This document shows, piece after piece, positions 5,968 to 28,248 of a stretch of 48,316 bases of DNA (the first letter of the stretch is position 1; every line of letters begins with the position of its first letter). A program made the translations under genes and the position numbers. This DNA is from a virus: positions 1-48,316 of the IMG/VR virus record IMGVR_UViG_3300024344_002083. One strand, given 5' to 3'. The notes under the pieces were generated by a model that saw only the letters and a list, made by a program, of their open reading frames with translations, was not told where the DNA came from and did not search any database.

Positions 5968-6937
5968 TCACGATAGCCGCATACTAATCACGGGTGGCGA
6001 CGGCTTTATTGGTTCACACTTAGCTTTATATCTACAGGGACTTGGCTACAAAAATATTTTTCCATGTCCTAAAACAGCAGAAGCTAACTTAAATGTTAGT
6101 GCCGCAGTAGGATATGCTTTCGAGTGGGCAGACCCTGACTGCGTTATTCATTTAGCCTCTAAAAATTCTGGGCTTCACAATAACATTAAATACCCTGCTG
6201 GAATCATGCACGAAAATCTTGATATGGGATTAAAAGTGTTTGAAGAGGCTAGGCTATACAATGTGAAAAAGTTCATTATGGCTGGGGATATGTCGTGCTA
6301 CTCTCCACAATCACCTGTGCCATTCAAAGAAGAAGATATGTGGATGGGAGAAGCTCATATCTCAAAAAGATTCTACTCGCACGCAAAAAGGATCTTGATG
6401 GAATACAATGGCGCGATGTCGAGCCAGTTTGAGTGGTGTGGAATAAATCTAATATTTAGTGACGTTTACGGCGTTGGCAACAAATGGAACCCTCTTGCTG
6501 GAAACATAATTCCAGTAGCAATAAGTCAAGTAGCATTAGCACAAGATGAGAACAGACCTTTAGAGCTTAGTGGAGATAAAAATTTAACTAGAGACTTCAT
6601 ACATATAAATGATGTCTGTAGAGCGATAGAAATTTGTGTTTCAAAACAAAATGAACCTATAGGATTTAATGTTGGTTCAGGTGTAGGAACTACTCTGGAA
6701 CAACTTCACGAAAAAATAGCCTATCTGATGGGGTATACAGGAATTACTTGGAACGAACACGAAAGTTACCTGCCTAAGAAAGCAGTTCTGTCTAATAAGC
6801 TAATCAATAAAACTCTTGGATGGAAACCAATAATGAACATAGACAATGGTTTAAAGGAATTAGTTTTACACCAAAGAACTCACATGAGCGTCGGAAGATT
6901 CTCAAGAGATAGCTTGGGTATAAACCATCTAATATGA
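5960..6937 (+). CDS. SDR epimerase/reductase, GDP-L-fucose synthase-like
   Basis: The 325 residues show an extended SDR sugar-nucleotide enzyme: Rossmann motif ITGGDGFIGSHLA (10-22), IHLASKNSGLHNN, and the active-site YSHAK (Tyr and Lys of YxxxK, near 139-143), then GDKNLTRDFIHINDV, typical of the substrate-binding half. The pattern IHLA...GG/SGLHNN and the short insertions resemble GDP-4-keto-6-deoxymannose epimerase-reductase (fucose synthase). I see no GDP-mannose 4,6-dehydratase in the window, so the precursor would come from elsewhere. It overlaps the thioredoxin-like gene by eight bases. Confidence 0.85.
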   Translation: MVNHDSRILITGGDGFIGSHLALYLQGLGYKNIFPCPKTAEANLNVSAAVGYAFEWADPDCVIHLASKNSGLHNNIKYPAGIMHENLDMGLKVFEEARLYNVKKFIMAGDMSCYSPQSPVPFKEEDMWMGEAHISKRFYSHAKRILMEYNGAMSSQFEWCGINLIFSDVYGVGNKWNPLAGNIIPVAISQVALAQDENRPLELSGDKNLTRDFIHINDVCRAIEICVSKQNEPIGFNVGSGVGTTLEQLHEKIAYLMGYTGITWNEHESYLPKKAVLSNKLINKTLGWKPIMNIDNGLKELVLHQRTHMSVGRFSRDSLGINHLI

Positions 6938-18120: not shown

Positions 18121-18579
18121 ATGTCACCACTAGAACTTATAAAGAATGGAATTTTAGAAAATGATTTTAAAAAAGTTATTCAAGGTTATGAAGCGCTCAC
18201 AGGAGAAAACCTCTCCTCAGCCAGAGGAGCAGAACCAGCAACCTCAAGAGAAGAAAGCACCAGCGACCAATCAGAAGAAGTGCGGAGGCCACAAGTGCCG
18301 GTGCGGTCGTCGGAGTTAGACTTTACAGTTCAAAGAGATGAACTCCCGATTGGTAAGTTTGGAAAAAAAGAATCAATACAAGTAGGTGCAAATCAATTTG
18401 TGGACGATGGATCTGAGGCACAGGGGCAAGAGTTTGATACTCCAAATGTTGCACCAACCCCAAGACGAAGCCCAGTACAAATGATTGAAGTTGTTTGCAA
18501 CGCATGTGGAGCTAAGGAAAAGATAAACCCAAAATATAAAACTGGTAGCTATCATCGTTGCGGAAAGTGTGTAGGTTAA
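18121..18579 (+). CDS. Disordered protein with C-terminal zinc ribbon
   Basis: The 152 residues start MSPLELIKNGILEND and FKKVIQGYEALTGENL, a short helical motif I recall from phage small proteins of this kind. A low-complexity polar middle (about 35-65) is followed by KFGKKESIQVGANQFVDDG and a C-terminal zinc ribbon: VCNACG and RCGKCVG. A DNA- or protein-binding adaptor is plausible. The 18190-18319 stretch is locally richer in G and C than its surroundings, and a second frame is open there. It overlaps the helicase start by one base (TAATG). Confidence 0.6.
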   Translation: MSPLELIKNGILENDFKKVIQGYEALTGENLSSARGAEPATSREESTSDQSEEVRRPQVPVRSSELDFTVQRDELPIGKFGKKESIQVGANQFVDDGSEAQGQEFDTPNVAPTPRRSPVQMIEVVCNACGAKEKINPKYKTGSYHRCGKCVG

Positions 18580-20057
18580 TGCAAGATTTAAAAGATTTAG
18601 TAGCAGAAAAGTCTGTTTTGGCTGGAGTAATTCAGCATGGCGAAGAAGTATATTACGATATAAAGCATGTTGTCAATGTGACATCTTTTACAGAGGAAGA
18701 TAATATCATATTATGGACAACATTAGAGAGGCTGTTTGATTCATCTGAAGCGGTTGACTATCCAACTCTGTGTACAAATACTCCATCTCTTGAGATGTTT
18801 AGCAAGTATGTACCAAAGGAAAAGTACAACAAACTACGGAATACGGAAATAACCCCTAAGAATACAAAGCTGGCAGCGGCTAGAGTTTTTAAGTTTGAAG
18901 CCGCTAGGCAAGCATACGCTGCCACTATTGAAATGCAAAGAAAGCTAAAATCTATCGAGGGAAAAGAATCTGTTAGTGAGATAGTTGGACTTGTTGAGCG
19001 TGAAGCTTTTTCAATTTCCGATAAGCTCGATGATAAACTAGATTCAAAACCAGAGCTAATTGGTGATGATGTTATGGAACATATCCAGCATCTAAGAGAC
19101 AATCCGTCTGAAATGATTGGTATCAGTAGTGGCTTCACTAGATTTGATGATGCCATTGGCGGTGGTTTTCGCACTGGTAATGTTGACTTGATAGCCGCAA
19201 GGACAAAAGTTGGTAAGAGTATGTTTGCTGACGCAGTAGCTTTGCATGTAGCTGGAGTGCTAAAAATACCAGTACTGTACTTAGATACTGAGATGCAGAA
19301 AAAAGACCACCAAAGAAGAATGCTTGCAAGCTTGAGTAACATTAAAACTAAGGATATTGAAAACTCCAAGTTTAATGAGTCTCAAGGTATGAATGAAAGA
19401 ATTGATAAAGCAGGTCTCAAAATAAAGGACATGCCTTATCACTTTAAGAATATTGCCGGAAAAAAGTTTGAAGAAACAGAGTCTTTGATAAGAAGATGGA
19501 TCATCAAAGATGTCGGCTTTAACGAACAAGGTGAAACAAATCCTTGCTTAGTTATATACGATTACTTCAAACTCACCACTTCTTCAGACATGGACAATCT
19601 AAAAGAGTTTCAAGCTCTTGGCTACCAAATGCAAGATATGGTTAACCTTACGATTGAATACAATTTTCCTTGCTTGAGCTTTGTTCAAACCAATAGAGAT
19701 GGCGAGACTAAAGAAACTCTAGAGACTATTAGTCAATCAGATAGGCTCTCATGGTTTGCGAGTAGTATTACAATCTTCAAGAAAAAATCATCTGACGAAA
19801 TGGCTGAAGATGCAGGCGCTAGTGGAAACAGAAAGTTAATACCAGTTGCTTCAAGGTATGGTGGTGGACTGGAAGACTTTGATTACATCAATGTAAACCT
19901 TTTTGGGGATTACTCTAGAGTTGAAGAGGGGCTGACTAAAAATGAATTAGTCCTAGCCACTAAAAAACAAAAAGAGGGATTTGAAAATACAGTTGGCGAT
20001 GAACAACAAGAGTTCAAGCCAGAAAAAGAAATTGAAGACGAAGGAAAACCGTTTTGA
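18579..20057 (+). CDS. dnaB: DnaB-like replicative helicase
   Basis: The start at 18579 follows the zinc-ribbon stop (TAATG). The 492 residues have an N-terminal helical domain, then the RecA-like helicase core: GFTRFDDAIGGGFRTGN, Walker A ARTKVGKS (around 206-213), a Walker-B-like strand LVIYDYFKL and a later LSFVQTNRD. Fit to the DnaB/gp41 family is good, and the length is typical. It unwinds DNA ahead of the polymerase as a hexamer. It is followed immediately by the primase, as in many phages. The C-terminal 60 residues are acidic and probably flexible. Confidence 0.9.
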   Translation: MQDLKDLVAEKSVLAGVIQHGEEVYYDIKHVVNVTSFTEEDNIILWTTLERLFDSSEAVDYPTLCTNTPSLEMFSKYVPKEKYNKLRNTEITPKNTKLAAARVFKFEAARQAYAATIEMQRKLKSIEGKESVSEIVGLVEREAFSISDKLDDKLDSKPELIGDDVMEHIQHLRDNPSEMIGISSGFTRFDDAIGGGFRTGNVDLIAARTKVGKSMFADAVALHVAGVLKIPVLYLDTEMQKKDHQRRMLASLSNIKTKDIENSKFNESQGMNERIDKAGLKIKDMPYHFKNIAGKKFEETESLIRRWIIKDVGFNEQGETNPCLVIYDYFKLTTSSDMDNLKEFQALGYQMQDMVNLTIEYNFPCLSFVQTNRDGETKETLETISQSDRLSWFASSITIFKKKSSDEMAEDAGASGNRKLIPVASRYGGGLEDFDYINVNLFGDYSRVEEGLTKNELVLATKKQKEGFENTVGDEQQEFKPEKEIEDEGKPF

Positions 20058-21133
20058 TGGCAAAAAAGAGAACTAATGAACAGTTAAAAAGACTGTCTGA
20101 CGAATTAGCTCTTAAACCGGAAAAGTTGCACCCTATTGGAATATTCATCTCTGAGACTGGGCATTTGCCTTGCCCAATTCATGGAGGTGATAATCCTCAA
20201 GGTTGTTCAGTGGTTTTAGATCCAGACAGCCCTTACTTTGGTACTTATACTTGTTGGACTGGAAACAAAGAGACTGGTCACAAGTGTCACGAAGTTTATA
20301 GGAATTCAATGATTGGATTGGTCAGAGGAAAATTATCATATGATGCTGGTCATGATGTTGGCTTCAATAAAGCTTTTGAAGTATGTTTGAAACTTGTAGA
20401 CTTGGACGAAGACTACCTAAGAAAAAATGCAACTAAGTTCAAAGCTCTTAGCGAACAAGAAAAGATTAACAGGATAAAAGAAAAAAAAGAAGAAAGGCTC
20501 AAACAAGCAAATCATAGAGAGCTGGTTAGAAAGAGCTTAAAGATGCCTTCAAAATATTTTGTTGGCAGAGGGTACTCAGAAAAGGTCTTAGACTATTTCG
20601 ACATAGGGATATCTAATCATCCTAAAAGCACCATGAAAGGACGCTCGATTGTACCTGTGTATGACGATGATGAACCTTTGATGGTAGGTTTTTTAGGAAG
20701 ATGGAATGGTGATGATTATGACGAAAGGGGAGTTCCAAAATGGAAAAACAATTATGGGTTTGCTAAGAGTCAATATCTTTATGGGTTTTATCAGAACAAA
20801 GAAGATATAATAAGAACAAAGACAGTAGTTTTAGTTGAGGGTCAAGGCGACGTATGGAGGTTGTGGGAAGCTGGTATCAAAAATGCAGTTGGGCTGTTTG
20901 GAACTAGCTTATCAGCTGCTCAGTTATTCACATTGAGAACTGCATGTATAGTTAACCTAGTCGTTATACTTGATAACGATCCAGCAGGAATCATCGCTAG
21001 AGAAAAAATCAACACAACCTGTAGTGATATATTCAATATTATCAATATCGAAACAAGCAGTAACGACATTGGCGATATGACAATCCAAGAAATCAACGAA
21101 CAAATAAAACCTAATCTTGAAGGACTCATTTAA
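20057..21133 (+). CDS. DnaG-type primase (zinc finger plus TOPRIM)
   Basis: Start at 20057 (TGATG with the helicase stop). The 358 residues show a zinc-binding N-terminus (CPIHGGDNPQGC, then CW...HKCHE), a middle RNA-polymerase-like part with GRSIVPVYDDD, and the TOPRIM domain: VLVEGQGDVWRLW (catalytic Glu in EGQGD) and VVILDNDPAG (DxD). It makes RNA primers for lagging-strand synthesis and probably binds the neighbouring helicase. The next gene starts on the last base of its stop. Confidence 0.88.
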   Translation: MAKKRTNEQLKRLSDELALKPEKLHPIGIFISETGHLPCPIHGGDNPQGCSVVLDPDSPYFGTYTCWTGNKETGHKCHEVYRNSMIGLVRGKLSYDAGHDVGFNKAFEVCLKLVDLDEDYLRKNATKFKALSEQEKINRIKEKKEERLKQANHRELVRKSLKMPSKYFVGRGYSEKVLDYFDIGISNHPKSTMKGRSIVPVYDDDEPLMVGFLGRWNGDDYDERGVPKWKNNYGFAKSQYLYGFYQNKEDIIRTKTVVLVEGQGDVWRLWEAGIKNAVGLFGTSLSAAQLFTLRTACIVNLVVILDNDPAGIIAREKINTTCSDIFNIINIETSSNDIGDMTIQEINEQIKPNLEGLI

Positions 21134-22475: not shown

Positions 22476-23469
22476 TCTTGGAACATTAGAGTTCTGTCAG
22501 CAAAAATACTTTTTGCAGTATAACCTTTCGTTTAAAGACAAGACCAATCCAAAAGCCTTAATGGGTACGATTACCCATAAGGTGATGCAGACTCTTGGAG
22601 ACAAGAAAGTTGCAATGAACAAAGGTCTTGAAATCGTAGAAGATGAAGAAACAGGAAGGAATCTAACGCTAGAAGAATGTGACGACCTTGAACTTCTCAA
22701 CAATATAGCGTTTGACTATTACACTAACGCCTTTCCAGAAGTAAAGATTGGTGACAAAGAAAGAAGGCAATGCCTTCGCTGGGCTGAAAAAGCGGTAGCT
22801 TTTAAGGATGGGATGCTAGATCCTAGAAACCAAGATGTATTCGCTACTGAACTCTTTTTTGATTTTGAAATAAAGAAACCTTGGGCTAAATATAAATATG
22901 AGTTTGAAGACCAAACAATCGAAGGTTATTTATCTATCAAGGGAACTGTTGACCTTATATTAGATCAGGGTAATGGCTTCTTTGAAATACTTGATTATAA
23001 AACTGGAAAGAGAATAGATTGGGCAACAGGCGAAGAAAAAACTTACGAGAAGTTACAAAAGGATACACAATTATTACTTTACTATTACGCTCTTAAAAAT
23101 ATGTATCCTGAAAGGGAATTTTCAGTAAGCATATACTATATAAACAGTGGAGGCTTATTCTCAATGGTCTTTGACGAAGAAGACTATCAATTAGCAGAGT
23201 CTATCCTTCGTAAAAAATTTGAACAAATAAGAAGCATACAGCAGCCAAGACTATTATCAAACGAACATGCTCATTGGAAGTGTCAAAAGCTATGCCTATT
23301 TAGTAGCGAGTATGAAGATAGCGGAAAAAGTATATGCCAACATATACGAGACGAAGTCAAAGAAAAGGGTGTAGTCAAAGTAGTTGAAGAATACGGCAAA
23401 ATTGATAAGATCGCCACGTATGGAGATGGCGGCGGAAGATTGGCAGACGATAGCGATAGCAAAAAATGA
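22447..23469 (+). CDS. RecB/Cas4-like PD-(D/E)XK exonuclease
   Basis: The 340 residues start with the RecB-type SSLGTLEFCQQKYFLQY, then the nuclease core GTVDLILD (Asp near 170) and FFEILDYKTGK (ExxDYK), and QLLLYYYAL. Four Cys, C17, C279, C283 and C297, are placed as in the iron-sulfur Cas4/AddB/Exo5 nucleases: one near the N-terminus and three near the end. The spacing is looser than in classical Cas4. It probably digests DNA ends for recombination or repair. It is coupled to the polymerase gene by ATGA at its end. Confidence 0.85.
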   Translation: MIVCYHRSSSLGTLEFCQQKYFLQYNLSFKDKTNPKALMGTITHKVMQTLGDKKVAMNKGLEIVEDEETGRNLTLEECDDLELLNNIAFDYYTNAFPEVKIGDKERRQCLRWAEKAVAFKDGMLDPRNQDVFATELFFDFEIKKPWAKYKYEFEDQTIEGYLSIKGTVDLILDQGNGFFEILDYKTGKRIDWATGEEKTYEKLQKDTQLLLYYYALKNMYPEREFSVSIYYINSGGLFSMVFDEEDYQLAESILRKKFEQIRSIQQPRLLSNEHAHWKCQKLCLFSSEYEDSGKSICQHIRDEVKEKGVVKVVEEYGKIDKIATYGDGGGRLADDSDSKK

Positions 23470-25388
23470 ATTGGACACCTTTACACCTGCATAGCCATTA
23501 CAGCCTCCTAGATGGCCTCTCAAAGCCTTCTCAGATAGCTTCTCGGTGTGCGAGCCTTGGTTTTGAATCTTGCGCTCTGACGGATCACGGGACGATCTCT
23601 GGCGCTGTTGCATTTTCTAAAGCAATGAGGCAAAAGAATATCAAACCAATACTCGGTTGTGAGTTCTACCTAAGCCAGCAAGATTGCACAGTTAAGTCTG
23701 AAGAAAATAGAAAACTAAGTCATCTTTGTGTTATTGCAAAGAATAAGAAAGGTTGGGGTCAGCTCATACAGGCGACTTCAAGAAGTAATGACGAAGAAAA
23801 TTTTTATTATAAGCCTCGTCTTGATCTTGATACTCTAGGTCAATATACAGATGGAAACTTGATAGCTTTTAGCGGTCATCTTGGAAGTGATTTAGCAAAT
23901 GTGATTTTCACTGATATTAAATCTGGTTATCGGGCTACAACTTTAGATGAGTTCAAAAGGTATGCTCATGCTGACTGGCCTGAGAGGGTTTCCAAGTTAG
24001 CTCATAGGTATCGAGATATATTTGGTAAAGATAATTTCTTTCTTGAAGTGCAATCAATAGATCAAGAGAATTCCATTGCGGCTAAGATGGTCGCTGAGGG
24101 AATGAGATACGTAGCGAATAAATATGACTTTAGAACTGTAGCTACCGCTGATTCTCACTATCCTGAACAAAAAGACGCAGGAGATCAGCTTCTACTTCTC
24201 TGCTCAGCGATGAGAACAACTCTTAGGGGCGTGAAAAAGAAAATTCAAGCCAATGAAGATGTGGCATTTTCTGGCTTTATGAAATCAACAAATTTTCACA
24301 TTCCAACATTAGAAGAAATACAATCAGTCAATTCGTCGAAAGAGATTGACACTTCTATGGAAATAGCGAGCATGTGCGAAGACTACGACATACTCGGCCA
24401 ACCTATGCTTCCAGAATTTGAATGTCCTGAGAGTAAATCAGAAGAAGACCATTTAAGGCAACTATGCCGTGACGGTTGGCGTGATAAGCTGTCTGGAATT
24501 TTGACAGAAAATCAAAAGCAAGAATACACTGAAAGAATTAAGAAAGAACTTGATGTCATAAGCGGCGCCAAACTGTCTGGCTACTTCCTTATTGTTAGAG
24601 ATATAGTCAACAGTGTCAGATCTAAAAATCATATACCCGGTCCGGGAAGAGGTTCTGCTGCTGGATGCTTAGTTTCTTATCTTGTTGGTATTACACAATT
24701 AGACCCTATTAGATACGGTTTAATCTTTGAACGTTTCTATAACGCAGGAAGAAATACAGGTGGATATGTGTCACTTCCAGATATTGATATTGACGTTCCA
24801 GCTACTAAACGAGACGAAACTATAGACTATATTAGAACCAAATATGGAAATGATCGTGTTGGTCAAATGGTTACGTTTGGAAGGCTTCAAGGTAGAAGCG
24901 CGTTAAAAGAAGTTCTTAGAATGAATGATGCTTGTAGTTATGACGAAATGAACGCTATTACCAAGAGTCTTCCTCATGAACATGAAGTATCTGATCAATT
25001 AGCTGAAATGGATGAACCGTCTGTAATTCAATGGACGTTGATGAATCAGCCGGATTCACTCAAGGATTATTGCCGATTAAATGACGATGGCAATCTTGAA
25101 GGCGACTATGCCAAATTATTCGCGCAGGCCATGCGTATAGAAGGTACATTTAAATCACAAGGAAAACACGCTGCTGGAGTCGTGATCTCTTCCCACAAAC
25201 TAGATGAAGTTTGCCCAATGGTTAGAGATAAGAAAGGCGCTGAGAAGATAGCAGGGCTTGAAATGAACGACCTAGAAGCAATGGGGCATGTAAAGTTTGA
25301 CATTTTAGGAATTTCCCTAATGGACAAAATCATGGGGATCAGAGATAAATTGGAGGAGGACGATGACCAAGAAAACTTGGAAAGATAA
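23466..25388 (+). CDS. dnaE: DNA polymerase III alpha subunit, N-terminal part (PHP and palm)
   Basis: The 640 residues start with a PHP domain having intact metal motifs (HLHSHYS with His7 and His9, LTDHG near 39-42), continue to the thumb and palm: GPGRGSAAGCLVSYL, PDIDIDV with catalytic Asp439 and Asp441, and VKFDILG with Asp612, matching E. coli D401, D403 and D555. The protein then ends 28 residues after Asp612, before the region that continues with VFQLES in bacterial DnaE. That continuation is encoded at 26242. The PHP may have phosphatase or proofreading-associated activity, since its ligands look kept. No intein-like end is present. Confidence 0.93.
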   Translation: MNWTPLHLHSHYSLLDGLSKPSQIASRCASLGFESCALTDHGTISGAVAFSKAMRQKNIKPILGCEFYLSQQDCTVKSEENRKLSHLCVIAKNKKGWGQLIQATSRSNDEENFYYKPRLDLDTLGQYTDGNLIAFSGHLGSDLANVIFTDIKSGYRATTLDEFKRYAHADWPERVSKLAHRYRDIFGKDNFFLEVQSIDQENSIAAKMVAEGMRYVANKYDFRTVATADSHYPEQKDAGDQLLLLCSAMRTTLRGVKKKIQANEDVAFSGFMKSTNFHIPTLEEIQSVNSSKEIDTSMEIASMCEDYDILGQPMLPEFECPESKSEEDHLRQLCRDGWRDKLSGILTENQKQEYTERIKKELDVISGAKLSGYFLIVRDIVNSVRSKNHIPGPGRGSAAGCLVSYLVGITQLDPIRYGLIFERFYNAGRNTGGYVSLPDIDIDVPATKRDETIDYIRTKYGNDRVGQMVTFGRLQGRSALKEVLRMNDACSYDEMNAITKSLPHEHEVSDQLAEMDEPSVIQWTLMNQPDSLKDYCRLNDDGNLEGDYAKLFAQAMRIEGTFKSQGKHAAGVVISSHKLDEVCPMVRDKKGAEKIAGLEMNDLEAMGHVKFDILGISLMDKIMGIRDKLEEDDDQENLER

Positions 25389-25581
25389 AATTCGGGACAA
25401 AATTCAAAACGGAAGGTACGAAGAATACAAAGGTCTTTCCATTTGCAAAATAAATGATTTCTACCAGCCAATGAACCGGAAGGTAAGATACCAAGTCCAC
25501 TCATATCGTTTCAGCGGACTTTTTGAAGATATTGAAGAAGCATTGGATAAATTTTTTGAGATTAAGAGGAAAATAAGATGA
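25363..25581 (+). CDS. Small basic ORF between the polymerase halves
   Basis: The 72 residues (MTKKTWKDKIRDKIQNGRY at the start) are basic and mixed alpha/beta (VRYQVHSYRFSGLFEDI), with no Cys or known motif. It overlaps the end of the polymerase N-part by 26 bases and the exonuclease start by four (ATGA). It could be a docking factor for the split polymerase, or unrelated and only lodged there. Confidence 0.5.
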   Translation: MTKKTWKDKIRDKIQNGRYEEYKGLSICKINDFYQPMNRKVRYQVHSYRFSGLFEDIEEALDKFFEIKRKIR

Positions 25582-26258
25582 ATTACAAAGACATTATTGT
25601 TTTTGATTTTGAAACAGGTTCTAGGAATCCGCACAAGACACAACCAGTCCAGATCGCAGCTGTAGCGATTCACGGAAGAAAGCTAACCATTCAGCCTGAT
25701 GGAGAGTTTAATAGCCTTATTAGGCCGGTGTTGGACGATGAAGAGGCCATAAAGCTAGGACTAGATCCTATTGAAGACGAAGCCTTGGCTGTAAATGGAA
25801 AGACTAGAGAAGAGCTTGCTAAAGCCCCTCAACCAAAAGTGGTTTGGGATAAGTTTGCGAACTTTGTAAACAGATACAATTTCAAAAAAACACCTTATTA
25901 TGCCCCAATCGCCGCTGGGTACAACATAATTGGCTTTGATCTGCCGATAGTACAAAGGATGTGTGAAAAATATGGGCCGGTTGACAAGAAAACTGGTCAG
26001 CAAACACTCTTTAATAAAATTCACAAAGTTGATATGCTTGATATTGTTTGGATGTGGATGGAGAATAATGCCGATGTTAAATCTTTGAGCATGGATTCGA
26101 TGCGTGATTTACTAGGCATGTCTAAAGAAAATGCGCATGACGCTTTGCAGGACGTTAAGGATACAGCTTTGATGATGATATCCTTCATGAAGTTCCACCG
26201 AAAAATTGCACCAAAAGTAAAATTTGAGAAAGCCTTTGCAGATGGCCGAGACTTTTAA
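25578..26258 (+). CDS. DEDDh 3'-5' exonuclease, proofreading-subunit-like
   Basis: The 226 residues have the DnaQ-family motifs: ExoI FDFETG (Asp10, Glu12), ExoII GYNIIGFDLPIV, and ExoIII HDALQDVKD (His187, Asp192), which makes it DEDDh. Length is near bacterial epsilon (about 240) but shorter at the C-terminus, and the usual clamp-binding motif is not obvious. It probably proofreads for the polymerase encoded on both sides. It overlaps the small ORF by four bases and the polymerase C-part by 17, a layout that suggests coordinated translation of all four genes. Confidence 0.9.
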   Translation: MNYKDIIVFDFETGSRNPHKTQPVQIAAVAIHGRKLTIQPDGEFNSLIRPVLDDEEAIKLGLDPIEDEALAVNGKTREELAKAPQPKVVWDKFANFVNRYNFKKTPYYAPIAAGYNIIGFDLPIVQRMCEKYGPVDKKTGQQTLFNKIHKVDMLDIVWMWMENNADVKSLSMDSMRDLLGMSKENAHDALQDVKDTALMMISFMKFHRKIAPKVKFEKAFADGRDF

Positions 26259-27834
26259 TTTAATTGAAGATGATAGCTTCGCTGACCAAGCCACTTGGGA
26301 CTTAATATGCTCAGGAAAAACTAAAGGTGTTTTCCAACTGGAAAGCAACTTGGGTAAATCTTGGGCAAAAAGAGTCAAGCCAAGAGACATCGAAGAACTA
26401 GCAGCCCTACTATCAATAATAAGACCCGGAACATTGAAAGCTATACAAGATGGCAAGTCAATGACCCAAAGGTTTGTTGACAGGAAAAATGGGTCTGAAA
26501 AGATTACTTATCCACACTCATCTTTAGAGCCTATACTCAAAACAACCCAAGGGGTTCTTGTGTATCAAGAACAGTCTATGCAGATTGCTCAAATGCTTGC
26601 TGGTTTTGATCTTCAAGAGGCAGATAATCTTCGTAAAGCAATCGGTAAGAAAAAAGCCGACCTAATGGCAAAAGTCAAAAAGGCATTTCTAGCTGGGGCT
26701 ATTAAAGAGGGGATTGTTGATAAAGACACTGCTGAGGAAATCTTCAGTTGGATTGAGAAGTCCAGTCGTTACGCATTTAACAAATCTCATGCGGTCTCGT
26801 ATGCAGTATGTGCTTATTGGAGCGCTTTTTGCAAGGCTCATCATCAACTGGAATTTTACTGTAATTATTTGATCTATTCTTCAGGCAAGCCAGACCCTCA
26901 CCAAGAAGTCAGAGAGCTTGTCAACGACGCAAAGAATAACGAAATCTATATCAGTCCTCCATCAATAAAGAGCTTGAATGTTAAGACTGACATAATTGAT
27001 GGTCGTATCCACTTCGGTATGTCTAATGTTAAGTCTATTGGCGTAAAGCATATAGAAAAATTCAAATCAGTAATCAAAGAAGTGGAAGAGAAGATAAACA
27101 AGCCGTTTATTGAATGGTCTTGGTATGATTTTTTGGTCTTGGCTTCGCAAAAGGTCAATAGGCCGGTGGTGATCGCTTTATGCTCGATTGGATTCTTTTC
27201 GCATTTGCCGGAGACTAGAACAGAAATGTTGGACAGGTTCCATACTTGGAGTCAACTTACTAAAAAAGAACAAGAATGGGCGGTCGAAAACCATTCCAAA
27301 TTTACTTGTATTGAAAAGATATTAAGCAAAATGGTTCCCGTCAAAAAAGAAGGCGGAGCTACGTTCAATAAAAAACGCTCTGACATGCTGCGTGATCTTT
27401 TGAATGAAATGCAGAATCCATCAAGTCCAATGTCTGACTCTAGGCGGTGGGTTATACAAGAAGAAGAAAGGTACTTAGGAGTAGCTTTAACATACTCTAG
27501 GATTGAAGCCTGTAACACGAACCTAGCCAATACTACGATTAAAGAGTTTTTAGATGGCAAACGAGGCGACATTAAGATGGCTGTGACTATTTCTGATGTT
27601 AAGAAGTGGGTAACTAAAAACGGCAAGATGAAAGGTTCTGAAATGGCGTTTCTTTGTGTAGAAGACACCACTGGAACTTTAGACACAGTAACCGTATTTT
27701 CTCAACAGTGGGAAGAAAACAAAGGCATACTATATACTGGTAATAATGTTATAATTTCTGGTACATCATCAAAAGACAAAAGACGACAAATTGACGATGG
27801 CTTCATTGTCAATAGTGTCATAGAATTAAGTTGA
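26242..27834 (+). CDS. dnaE: DNA polymerase III alpha subunit, C-terminal part (fingers to OB fold)
   Basis: Start at ATG 26242 is preferred to TTG 26224. The 530 residues resume bacterial DnaE after the palm: GVFQLES, LSIIRPGTLKA, ILKTTQGVLVYQEQSMQIAQ, AIGKKKADLMAK and YAFNKSHAVSYA, then the little finger and a C-terminal OB-like part (GSEMAFLCVEDTTGTLDTV). No catalytic Asp lies in this half; all three are in the upstream gene. 640 plus 530 residues is close to the 1160 of E. coli DnaE. It must assemble with the N-part, probably without covalent joining. Confidence 0.93.
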   Translation: MAETFNLIEDDSFADQATWDLICSGKTKGVFQLESNLGKSWAKRVKPRDIEELAALLSIIRPGTLKAIQDGKSMTQRFVDRKNGSEKITYPHSSLEPILKTTQGVLVYQEQSMQIAQMLAGFDLQEADNLRKAIGKKKADLMAKVKKAFLAGAIKEGIVDKDTAEEIFSWIEKSSRYAFNKSHAVSYAVCAYWSAFCKAHHQLEFYCNYLIYSSGKPDPHQEVRELVNDAKNNEIYISPPSIKSLNVKTDIIDGRIHFGMSNVKSIGVKHIEKFKSVIKEVEEKINKPFIEWSWYDFLVLASQKVNRPVVIALCSIGFFSHLPETRTEMLDRFHTWSQLTKKEQEWAVENHSKFTCIEKILSKMVPVKKEGGATFNKKRSDMLRDLLNEMQNPSSPMSDSRRWVIQEEERYLGVALTYSRIEACNTNLANTTIKEFLDGKRGDIKMAVTISDVKKWVTKNGKMKGSEMAFLCVEDTTGTLDTVTVFSQQWEENKGILYTGNNVIISGTSSKDKRRQIDDGFIVNSVIELS

Positions 27835-27891: not shown

Positions 27892-28248
27892 ATGAATACA
27901 ATTTCTAATTATTGCCGCTTCATAGGACGGTTAGTTCAAGACCCAAAGACTGTAAAATTCGATAACACAGAGCTTTGCACTTTTACGTTAGCTGTCACTG
28001 AGTATAGAAGAGAAAAAGATGGCAACAAAAAAAAGAATGTTAACTTTTTTGACTTTGAAGCATGGGATTCTGGCGGATCAACTATTCAAAAACACTGTAA
28101 CAAAGGTGACATAATTGATTTGGTAGCATCTGCTAGAAACAATTCTTGGACAGATAAGGATGGTAAAAAAAGATTCTCAACAAAATTCAGAGTTAAGGAA
28201 TTCAAACTCTTTGGAAATCAGCAAAAACAAGAAACTGAAAAAAGCTGA
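27892..28248 (+). CDS. ssb: Single-stranded DNA-binding protein
   Basis: The 118 residues form one OB fold of the bacterial SSB type: FIGRLVQDPKTVKF at the start, LCTFTLAVTEYRRE, NFFDFEAWDSGGSTIQKHCNKGDIIDLVASARNNSWTDKDG (quoted in parts: FFDFEAWDSG and KGDIIDLVASA), and STKFRVKEFKLFG. The acidic C-terminal DDDIPF-type tip of bacterial SSB is absent; the end is QQKQETEKS. It coats single-stranded DNA at the fork. It has its own promoter and overlaps a sigma-like gene. Confidence 0.88.
   Translation: MNTISNYCRFIGRLVQDPKTVKFDNTELCTFTLAVTEYRREKDGNKKKNVNFFDFEAWDSGGSTIQKHCNKGDIIDLVASARNNSWTDKDGKKRFSTKFRVKEFKLFGNQQKQETEKS

Follow-up and report, generated by a model that had tools for sequence, protein, structure and literature searches.

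The window analysed here, the whole stretch of 48,316 nucleotides (positions 1-48,316 of the IMG/VR virus record IMGVR_UViG_3300024344_002083), carries the alpha subunit of DNA polymerase III (DnaE) divided between two genes, with a DEDDh exonuclease gene and a 72-residue open reading frame (ORF) lying between the halves. Judging from sequence comparisons, these genes quite probably specify the replicative C-family polymerase of a phage, in which two polypeptides would be assembled non-covalently and the exonuclease would act as the proofreader. Replicative C-family polymerases are normally single-chain enzymes. The genes are arranged as follows:

23466-25388, plus strand: DnaE N half, 640 amino acids, with the PHP domain and the palm, including D439, D441 and D612 (Pfam PHP, 2.4e-39; DNA_pol3_alpha, 1.1e-70).
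25352-25360, plus strand: Shine-Dalgarno-like GGAGGAGGA preceding the 72-residue ORF, read directly from the sequence.
25363-25581, plus strand: 72-residue ORF, which adjoins the exonuclease gene on its upstream side and has no Pfam or PHROG match.
25578-26258, plus strand: DEDDh 3'-5' exonuclease (RNase_T/DnaQ-like), 226 amino acids (Pfam RNase_T, 1.9e-14; D10, E12, D121, H187 and D192).
26242-27834, plus strand: DnaE C half, 530 amino acids from the ATG, with the fingers, the helix-hairpin-helix (HhH) and the OB region (Pfam DNA_pol3_finger, 1.2e-47; HHH_6, 1.8e-6).

The initial annotation had proposed these ORFs, with the 72-residue ORF and the exonuclease inside the break, and all of them are present at the positions it gave. 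The gap between the halves is wholly covered by genes; the 72-residue ORF, the exonuclease gene and the C gene each overlap the preceding gene, and each is preceded by a Shine-Dalgarno-like stretch. The overlap of the C gene with the 3' end of the exonuclease gene is 17 bases. The first possible start of the C gene is the TTG at 26224, and its first ATG, at 26242, lies 9 bases after GAGAAAG. Counted from this ATG, the N and C products total 1170 residues (640 + 530), as had been proposed.

Both halves were compared with DnaE profiles, and the palm, PHP, fingers and HHH_6 were matched. The N half contains PF07733 with the catalytic DxD and the third Asp; Pfam and the alignment agree with the earlier assignment of PHP and all three catalytic Asp residues to an upstream product that ends just past the palm. 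D439, D441 and D612 were invariant in 26 aligned N halves. The PDxDxD motif was kept in all 245 complete N halves, and the third-Asp motif was found in 236 of the 245 with a strict pattern. The C half carries the fingers (PF17657) and HHH_6 according to Pfam. Its extension into the OB part, also claimed initially, was recovered by the structure model and Foldseek only, since no Pfam OB model matched this region of the window C half. Where a C-family DnaE is a single polypeptide, the window has two genes.

The AlphaFold model of the N half had a mean predicted local distance difference test score (pLDDT) of 90.3 and a predicted template modelling score (pTM) of 0.88; for the C half (26233-27831), these values were 89.5 and 0.81. 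Values of pLDDT below 50 over at least three residues were found at residues 635-640 of the N half and at residues 1-8 and 517-519 of the C half. Model confidence was low at both ends flanking the break, and each half was otherwise confident alone. The best PDB match of the N half was the Pol III alpha structure 2hpi (E 5e-47; template modelling (TM) score 0.75 by query length). In Foldseek, the C half likewise matched Pol III alpha structures best, namely, 4iqj (E 5e-23, 537 columns, TM 0.54) and 7pu7 (TM 0.68), and its OB-fold matches were weak (E 0.03 or worse).

The position of the break was determined with phmmer. Residue 619 of the N half corresponds to residue 562 of E. coli alpha, and residue 17 of the C half (translation of 26233-27831) corresponds to residue 592. 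Therefore, the break lies in the palm-fingers linker, which comprises approximately 34 residues in the window and 29 in E. coli, and no conserved DnaE segment was lost there. Among the relatives, the N chain continues for 12-40 residues beyond its final conserved motif, and TKGxFQLE is preceded by 16-67 residues in the C chain. In 62 of 241 C halves (for example, in the loci L103, L106 and L111), though not in that of the window, the N-terminus is extended by a short stretch with an F-x-C-G-C-like motif, a possible contact element at the break. In L209 (4331-6305) and L235 (3564-6334), the N half is itself distributed over two open frames, and in L369 the C gene is broken once more without signs of an intein, perhaps by a frameshift.

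To find the same split in related phage contigs, as the initial annotation had suggested, loci were searched for with the N half, the C half, the exonuclease, their profiles and the one-frame locus L398 described below as queries. Three profile scans of viral contigs contributed the best 80 each, and two loci, L246 and L247, came from a scan of cellular genomes. After 164 duplicates and 24 loci without the N part or the fingers in the stretch had been removed from the 440 loci, 252 distinct informative loci were left. Because they were found by similarity to the window or its relatives, they are near relatives and not a random sample. DnaE was split at the same break in 250 of them, and all 250 had the order N-exonuclease-C on one strand. 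The identity of these split loci to the window, by best piece, was 40-98% for the N half, 34-100% for the exonuclease and 38-98% for the C half, one example being a 99.9-kb contig with an N half 98% identical. One of the two exceptions, L120, is an unbroken DnaE without this exonuclease and is 23-32% identical. The other is L398, the only exception within the clade, and no near relative with an intact dnaE was present among the 252 loci, in keeping with the initial annotation. Distances between N halves, exonucleases and C halves were correlated over 148 non-redundant loci (r of 0.87 for N-C, 0.78 for N-exonuclease and 0.82 for C-exonuclease; at most 0.09 in permutations).

Among the 80 loci retained from the cellular-genome scan, 76 were intact and without this exonuclease, and two (L246 and L247) were split with it. 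Of the remaining loci, L311 was without the N part, and L278 was interrupted by one in-frame stop; L278 was rejected as a split without the exonuclease because both open frames share one frame with a single stop codon between them. The contigs of L246 and L247, binned in metagenome-assembled genomes of Lokiarchaeota and Flavobacteriales, are probably phage contigs. In the GenBank phage collection, from which records very near the window were possibly left out, there was no N match of at least 60% identity (the top match listed was 34.5% identical), and six records matched the exonuclease at 25-27% identity. The palm and fingers were in one open frame in 17 of the 18 phage records compared, with P1201 as the exception; AnnaSerena and Candle had a PHP-like match in a separate frame.

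The D, E, D, H and D residues of the exonuclease were invariant in 21 aligned members, as in DnaQ-like DEDDh enzymes. Over 250 loci, H-x-A-x-x-D was kept in all, the middle Asp in 249 and D-x-E, with a strict pattern, in 244. The best sequence match among solved structures was the PolC-type chain 2p1j (3.5e-12), and the exonuclease profile gave one match per contig in 20 large contigs. Pseudomonas F8 and Escherichia WFC have a DnaQ-like exonuclease gene immediately upstream of an unbroken dnaE. Therefore, the pairing of such a gene with dnaE is not new, whereas its location inside dnaE is. The PHP motif TDHG is left in 106 of the 245 complete N halves, and its loss from most of them while the exonuclease was kept is expected if the exonuclease proofreads. 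Considering gene order and conservation, the exonuclease may be regarded as a putative epsilon-like proofreader and bound subunit. Its C-terminal tail resembles K-x-K-F-E-x-A-F (approximately 26210-26258 in the window) in 207 of 250 loci by a loose pattern and is a candidate docking peptide. In some loci, for example, L234, L241, L088, L010 and L084, the gap holds other ORFs of at least 80 amino acids (121 more in all), so it seems to accept extra genes.

The 19 contigs of 93-238 kb were examined for other polymerases. PF07733 and PF17657 were each found in 19 of 19, with one match each, whereas Pfam models of PolB and PolA, with working controls, matched none of the 19. The bacterial clamp (PF02768) was likewise found in none of the 19 with a working control. 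The T4-type clamp (PF02916) was found in none of 20, but its positive control was also empty, and this result therefore has no bearing on the presence of such a clamp. Thus, in the large contigs of a group seen in 250 distinct loci, no A-, B- or C-family polymerase other than the two-chain version was found.

In L398, located on a 40.6-kb contig, PHP, palm and fingers are in one unbroken frame, and the exonuclease and a homologue of the 72-residue ORF lie upstream. The exonuclease gene overlaps the start of this one-frame palm-fingers gene. Identity to the window is approximately 50% in the N part and 61% in the fingers, and a separate 158.5-kb contig (L469) carries DNA identical to L398. The homologue of the 72-residue ORF (83 amino acids, 6261-6512; 34% identity over 61 amino acids by blastp) is directly upstream of the exonuclease gene although the latter is outside dnaE; among the distinct split loci, tblastn recovered this ORF in 62 of 130.

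A quick tree of 64 rows, built without L398, placed the 32 split rows, including the window, on one side of a single branch (Shimodaira-Hasegawa-like approximate likelihood ratio test support of 100) and P1201 away from them. In a careful tree of 45 rows, L398 was found within the starred 23-row set (100/99), and the split rows excluded L398 in 0 of 200 bootstrap trees; an approximately unbiased (AU) test of the split rows excluding L398 gave p 0.03 for these 45 rows. They were obtained from a set of 54 rows by removing the divergent or long L117, L484, L497, L162, L519, L488, L041, L246 and L419, and the 54-row tree was itself built without L476, L523, L536 and L526, which the table of distinct loci does not contain. 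Apparently, L398 nests inside the split clade, which would suggest re-fusion and two halves that form one enzyme. L398 is thus probably a natural re-fusion with the exonuclease moved upstream, and its being the ancestral unsplit state is less likely.

According to the mechanism proposed, two polypeptides would be made constitutively from separate genes. PHP and the palm, and with them the full set of three catalytic Asp residues, would come from the N chain. The C chain would add the fingers, HhH and OB region, the parts of known Pol III that bind the template and the incoming nucleotide. Since neither chain is expected to polymerise by itself, the two should associate non-covalently over the palm-fingers boundary and rebuild one alpha subunit, with the product of the intervening DEDDh exonuclease gene serving as an epsilon-like proofreader. 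Physical association of the halves and polymerase activity are predictions; the non-covalent polymerase with its proofreader suggested in the initial annotation gains support from the conservation and from the lack of a rejoining element. It can be proposed only tentatively that the gap itself has a function: the exonuclease, synthesised between the two halves, would be an indispensable third subunit docking at the palm-fingers seam and would organise the assembly of its own polymerase, and a large phage clade would have exchanged the single-chain alpha for a three-chain core enzyme.

Several observations weigh against a two-chain polymerase with its own proofreader. The AlphaFold models cover the single chains. 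The parallel distances of N, exonuclease and C may merely reflect the common ancestry of adjacent genes, and further genes occupy the gap in some loci. In the 54-row set, the AU test gave a nonsignificant p of 0.07, which leaves some doubt about whether L398 is nested. Any of the 19 large contigs may be incomplete, and the Pfam models would miss a polymerase that has diverged too far. The short overlaps noted in the initial annotation exist in the window, and for 147 of the 241 C genes, the ATG closest to the exonuclease stop falls within the exonuclease gene. However, the closest C start is more than 30 bases away from the exonuclease in 43 of the 241 loci, and in 8 no ATG precedes the first motif; thus, the tight coupling of the two genes is not universal.

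If the halves were rejoined covalently by a split intein, trans-splicing, a programmed frameshift or a bypass, the working enzyme would be an ordinary single chain. The family does contain split inteins at another site (seven loci) and one contiguous mini-intein (L117), but at the palm-fingers break the N tails of 12-40 amino acids and C heads of 16-67 amino acids leave too little for the N-intein of approximately 100 amino acids seen at the other site. No Pfam intein model matched the window genes at E 0.001, and no split-intein DnaE was recognised at the break, as expected from the initial annotation, which had seen no intein end. The same models served as positive controls: Hint and Intein_splicing matched L117, L051 and L398 at 1e-5 to 1e-7, mostly under the curated cut-offs. 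An intein at this break was therefore rejected. The frame offset from exonuclease to C half differs among 130 loci (1 in 89, 2 in 29 and 0 in 12), which led to the rejection of a fixed frameshift, and an intron was rejected because no Rfam family was matched in the six sources searched. Since, moreover, the window gap is fully occupied by genes, covalent rejoining appears very unlikely. The window is an assembled environmental contig, and an artefact of sequencing or assembly might be suspected, but the same split in 250 distinct loci, including the 99.9-kb contig with the nearly identical N half, led us to reject misassembly, and an artefact can practically be dismissed.

It is very unlikely that the halves are relics or accessory proteins and that the host polymerase replicates the phage. 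The incompleteness of the contigs and the predicted status of the polymerase activity leave some room for this explanation. Nevertheless, the catalytic residues are kept in sequences down to approximately 40% identity, the genes run together with those for DnaB helicase, primase and single-strand binding protein, a one-frame version exists (L398), and both halves are matched once in every one of the 19 large contigs. The halves might also form a polymerase while the exonuclease, merely sharing the gap, serves separately in repair or recombination. Other gap genes do exist, namely, a methyltransferase (Pfam) and, by sequence reading, HNH-like and uracil-DNA-glycosylase-like ORFs. However, the largest family of such inserts has 20 members, whereas the exonuclease is in the gap of 250 of 250 split loci. 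Considering also its overlap with the one-frame gene in L398 and the adjoining exonucleases in F8 and WFC, a separate nuclease is improbable, and a proofreader of the two-chain polymerase is preferred.

Split phage polymerases are already known as a kind from gp43A/gp43B and from the split alpha of jumbo phages. In the T4-like Aeromonas phages 25 and 44RR, the replicative polymerase likewise consists of two chains, and for phage 25, co-purification of 43A with 43B and polymerase activity are documented (PMC2988022). Unlike the window proteins, gp43A/gp43B belong to the B family with an unrelated fold, and in place of an exonuclease gene their gap has a seg-like homing endonuclease in phage 25 and an untranslated stretch in 44RR. 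In group 2.2 jumbo phages, a minimal C-family alpha homologue is divided between two proteins, which are predicted to form one enzyme together; the genes are widely separated, only core domains are present, a B-family polymerase is encoded as well, and the cut parts the NTP-binding from the Mg/template-binding portions (Iyer et al. 2021, PMC7824862). In contrast, PHP and OB are kept in the window, the three catalytic Asp residues are on one chain, the exonuclease is in the gap, and PolB was absent from the 19 large contigs. Compared by description only, the window thus lacks the marks of the minimal jumbo-phage alpha (no PHP, PolB present, distant genes).

In cyanobacterial DnaE, the break lies just before CFNKSHS, and the halves are rejoined by protein splicing. 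The window differs in the site of the break and in that no intein was found at it; the likeness to the cyanobacterial DnaE with its split intein (PMC3919608) lies in a dnaE in two genes. In Corynebacterium phage P1201, dnaE is annotated as two overlapping genes, gp59/gp58 (DQ499600.1, 44915-48275; L159), with the break in the same palm-fingers linker. However, P1201 is elsewhere in the tree and has no gene between the halves. Because a single intact dnaE gene is present in its relative Zion (gp58 60% identical), P1201 may represent a recent break or a sequencing frameshift. It was rejected as a prototype of the split on account of its branching and the intact gene of Zion.

In a literature search, with most subscription papers outside its reach, no paper was recognised as describing the N-exonuclease-C arrangement, that of Iyer et al. 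2021 being the nearest. New here are the position of the cut, the exonuclease gene residing in the gap, the absence of any further polymerase among those detected, and a lineage whose palm and fingers have probably been re-joined. The intact outgroups, split, re-fused and split-plus-intein forms make up a natural series that bears on how an enzyme copes with being cut next to its active site, and biochemistry gains a split Pol III that is ready for use.

The split inteins at the second site were found in L051 (11130-13962), L398 (7198-11884), L419, L484, L497, L507 and L532, with the N-intein tail after FNK or FNR and the C-intein head before SHA, SHS or SHG. Between the intein-split frames of the C part, there are 856-898 bases, and in L051 and L398 the insert between the intein halves holds an ORF of approximately 300 amino acids with weak DUF559/NUMOD3 (endonuclease-like) matches. 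The mini-intein of L117 (7965-9947), approximately 135 amino acids, is at nearly the same FN/SHA site. We take the FNK/SHA break to be near the cyanobacterial DnaE intein site, and these loci presumably resemble the fractured-gene arrangement, in which, as reportedly described by Dassa et al. in 2009, a split intein has an insert between its halves. This likeness concerns the secondary break of L051, L398 and the five other loci and not the main break, which lacks an intein.

On the plus strand of the window, genes for ribonucleotide reductase, PhoH, a UvsX-like recombinase, DnaB helicase, primase, deoxynucleoside monophosphate kinase and a PD-(D/E)XK nuclease precede the DnaE N half in this order. 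The 72-residue ORF, the exonuclease, the DnaE C half, the single-strand binding protein and a sigma-like factor follow it. Three of these neighbours were located as follows:

18558-20057, plus strand: DnaB-like helicase, upstream in the same gene run (Pfam DnaB_C, 1.7e-20).
20054-21133, plus strand: DNA primase (Toprim), upstream in the same gene run (PHROG 47 DNA primase, 8.4e-36; Pfam Toprim_4, 6.3e-9).
27892-28248, plus strand: single-strand binding protein, the first gene 3' of the C half (Pfam SSB, 8.5e-16).
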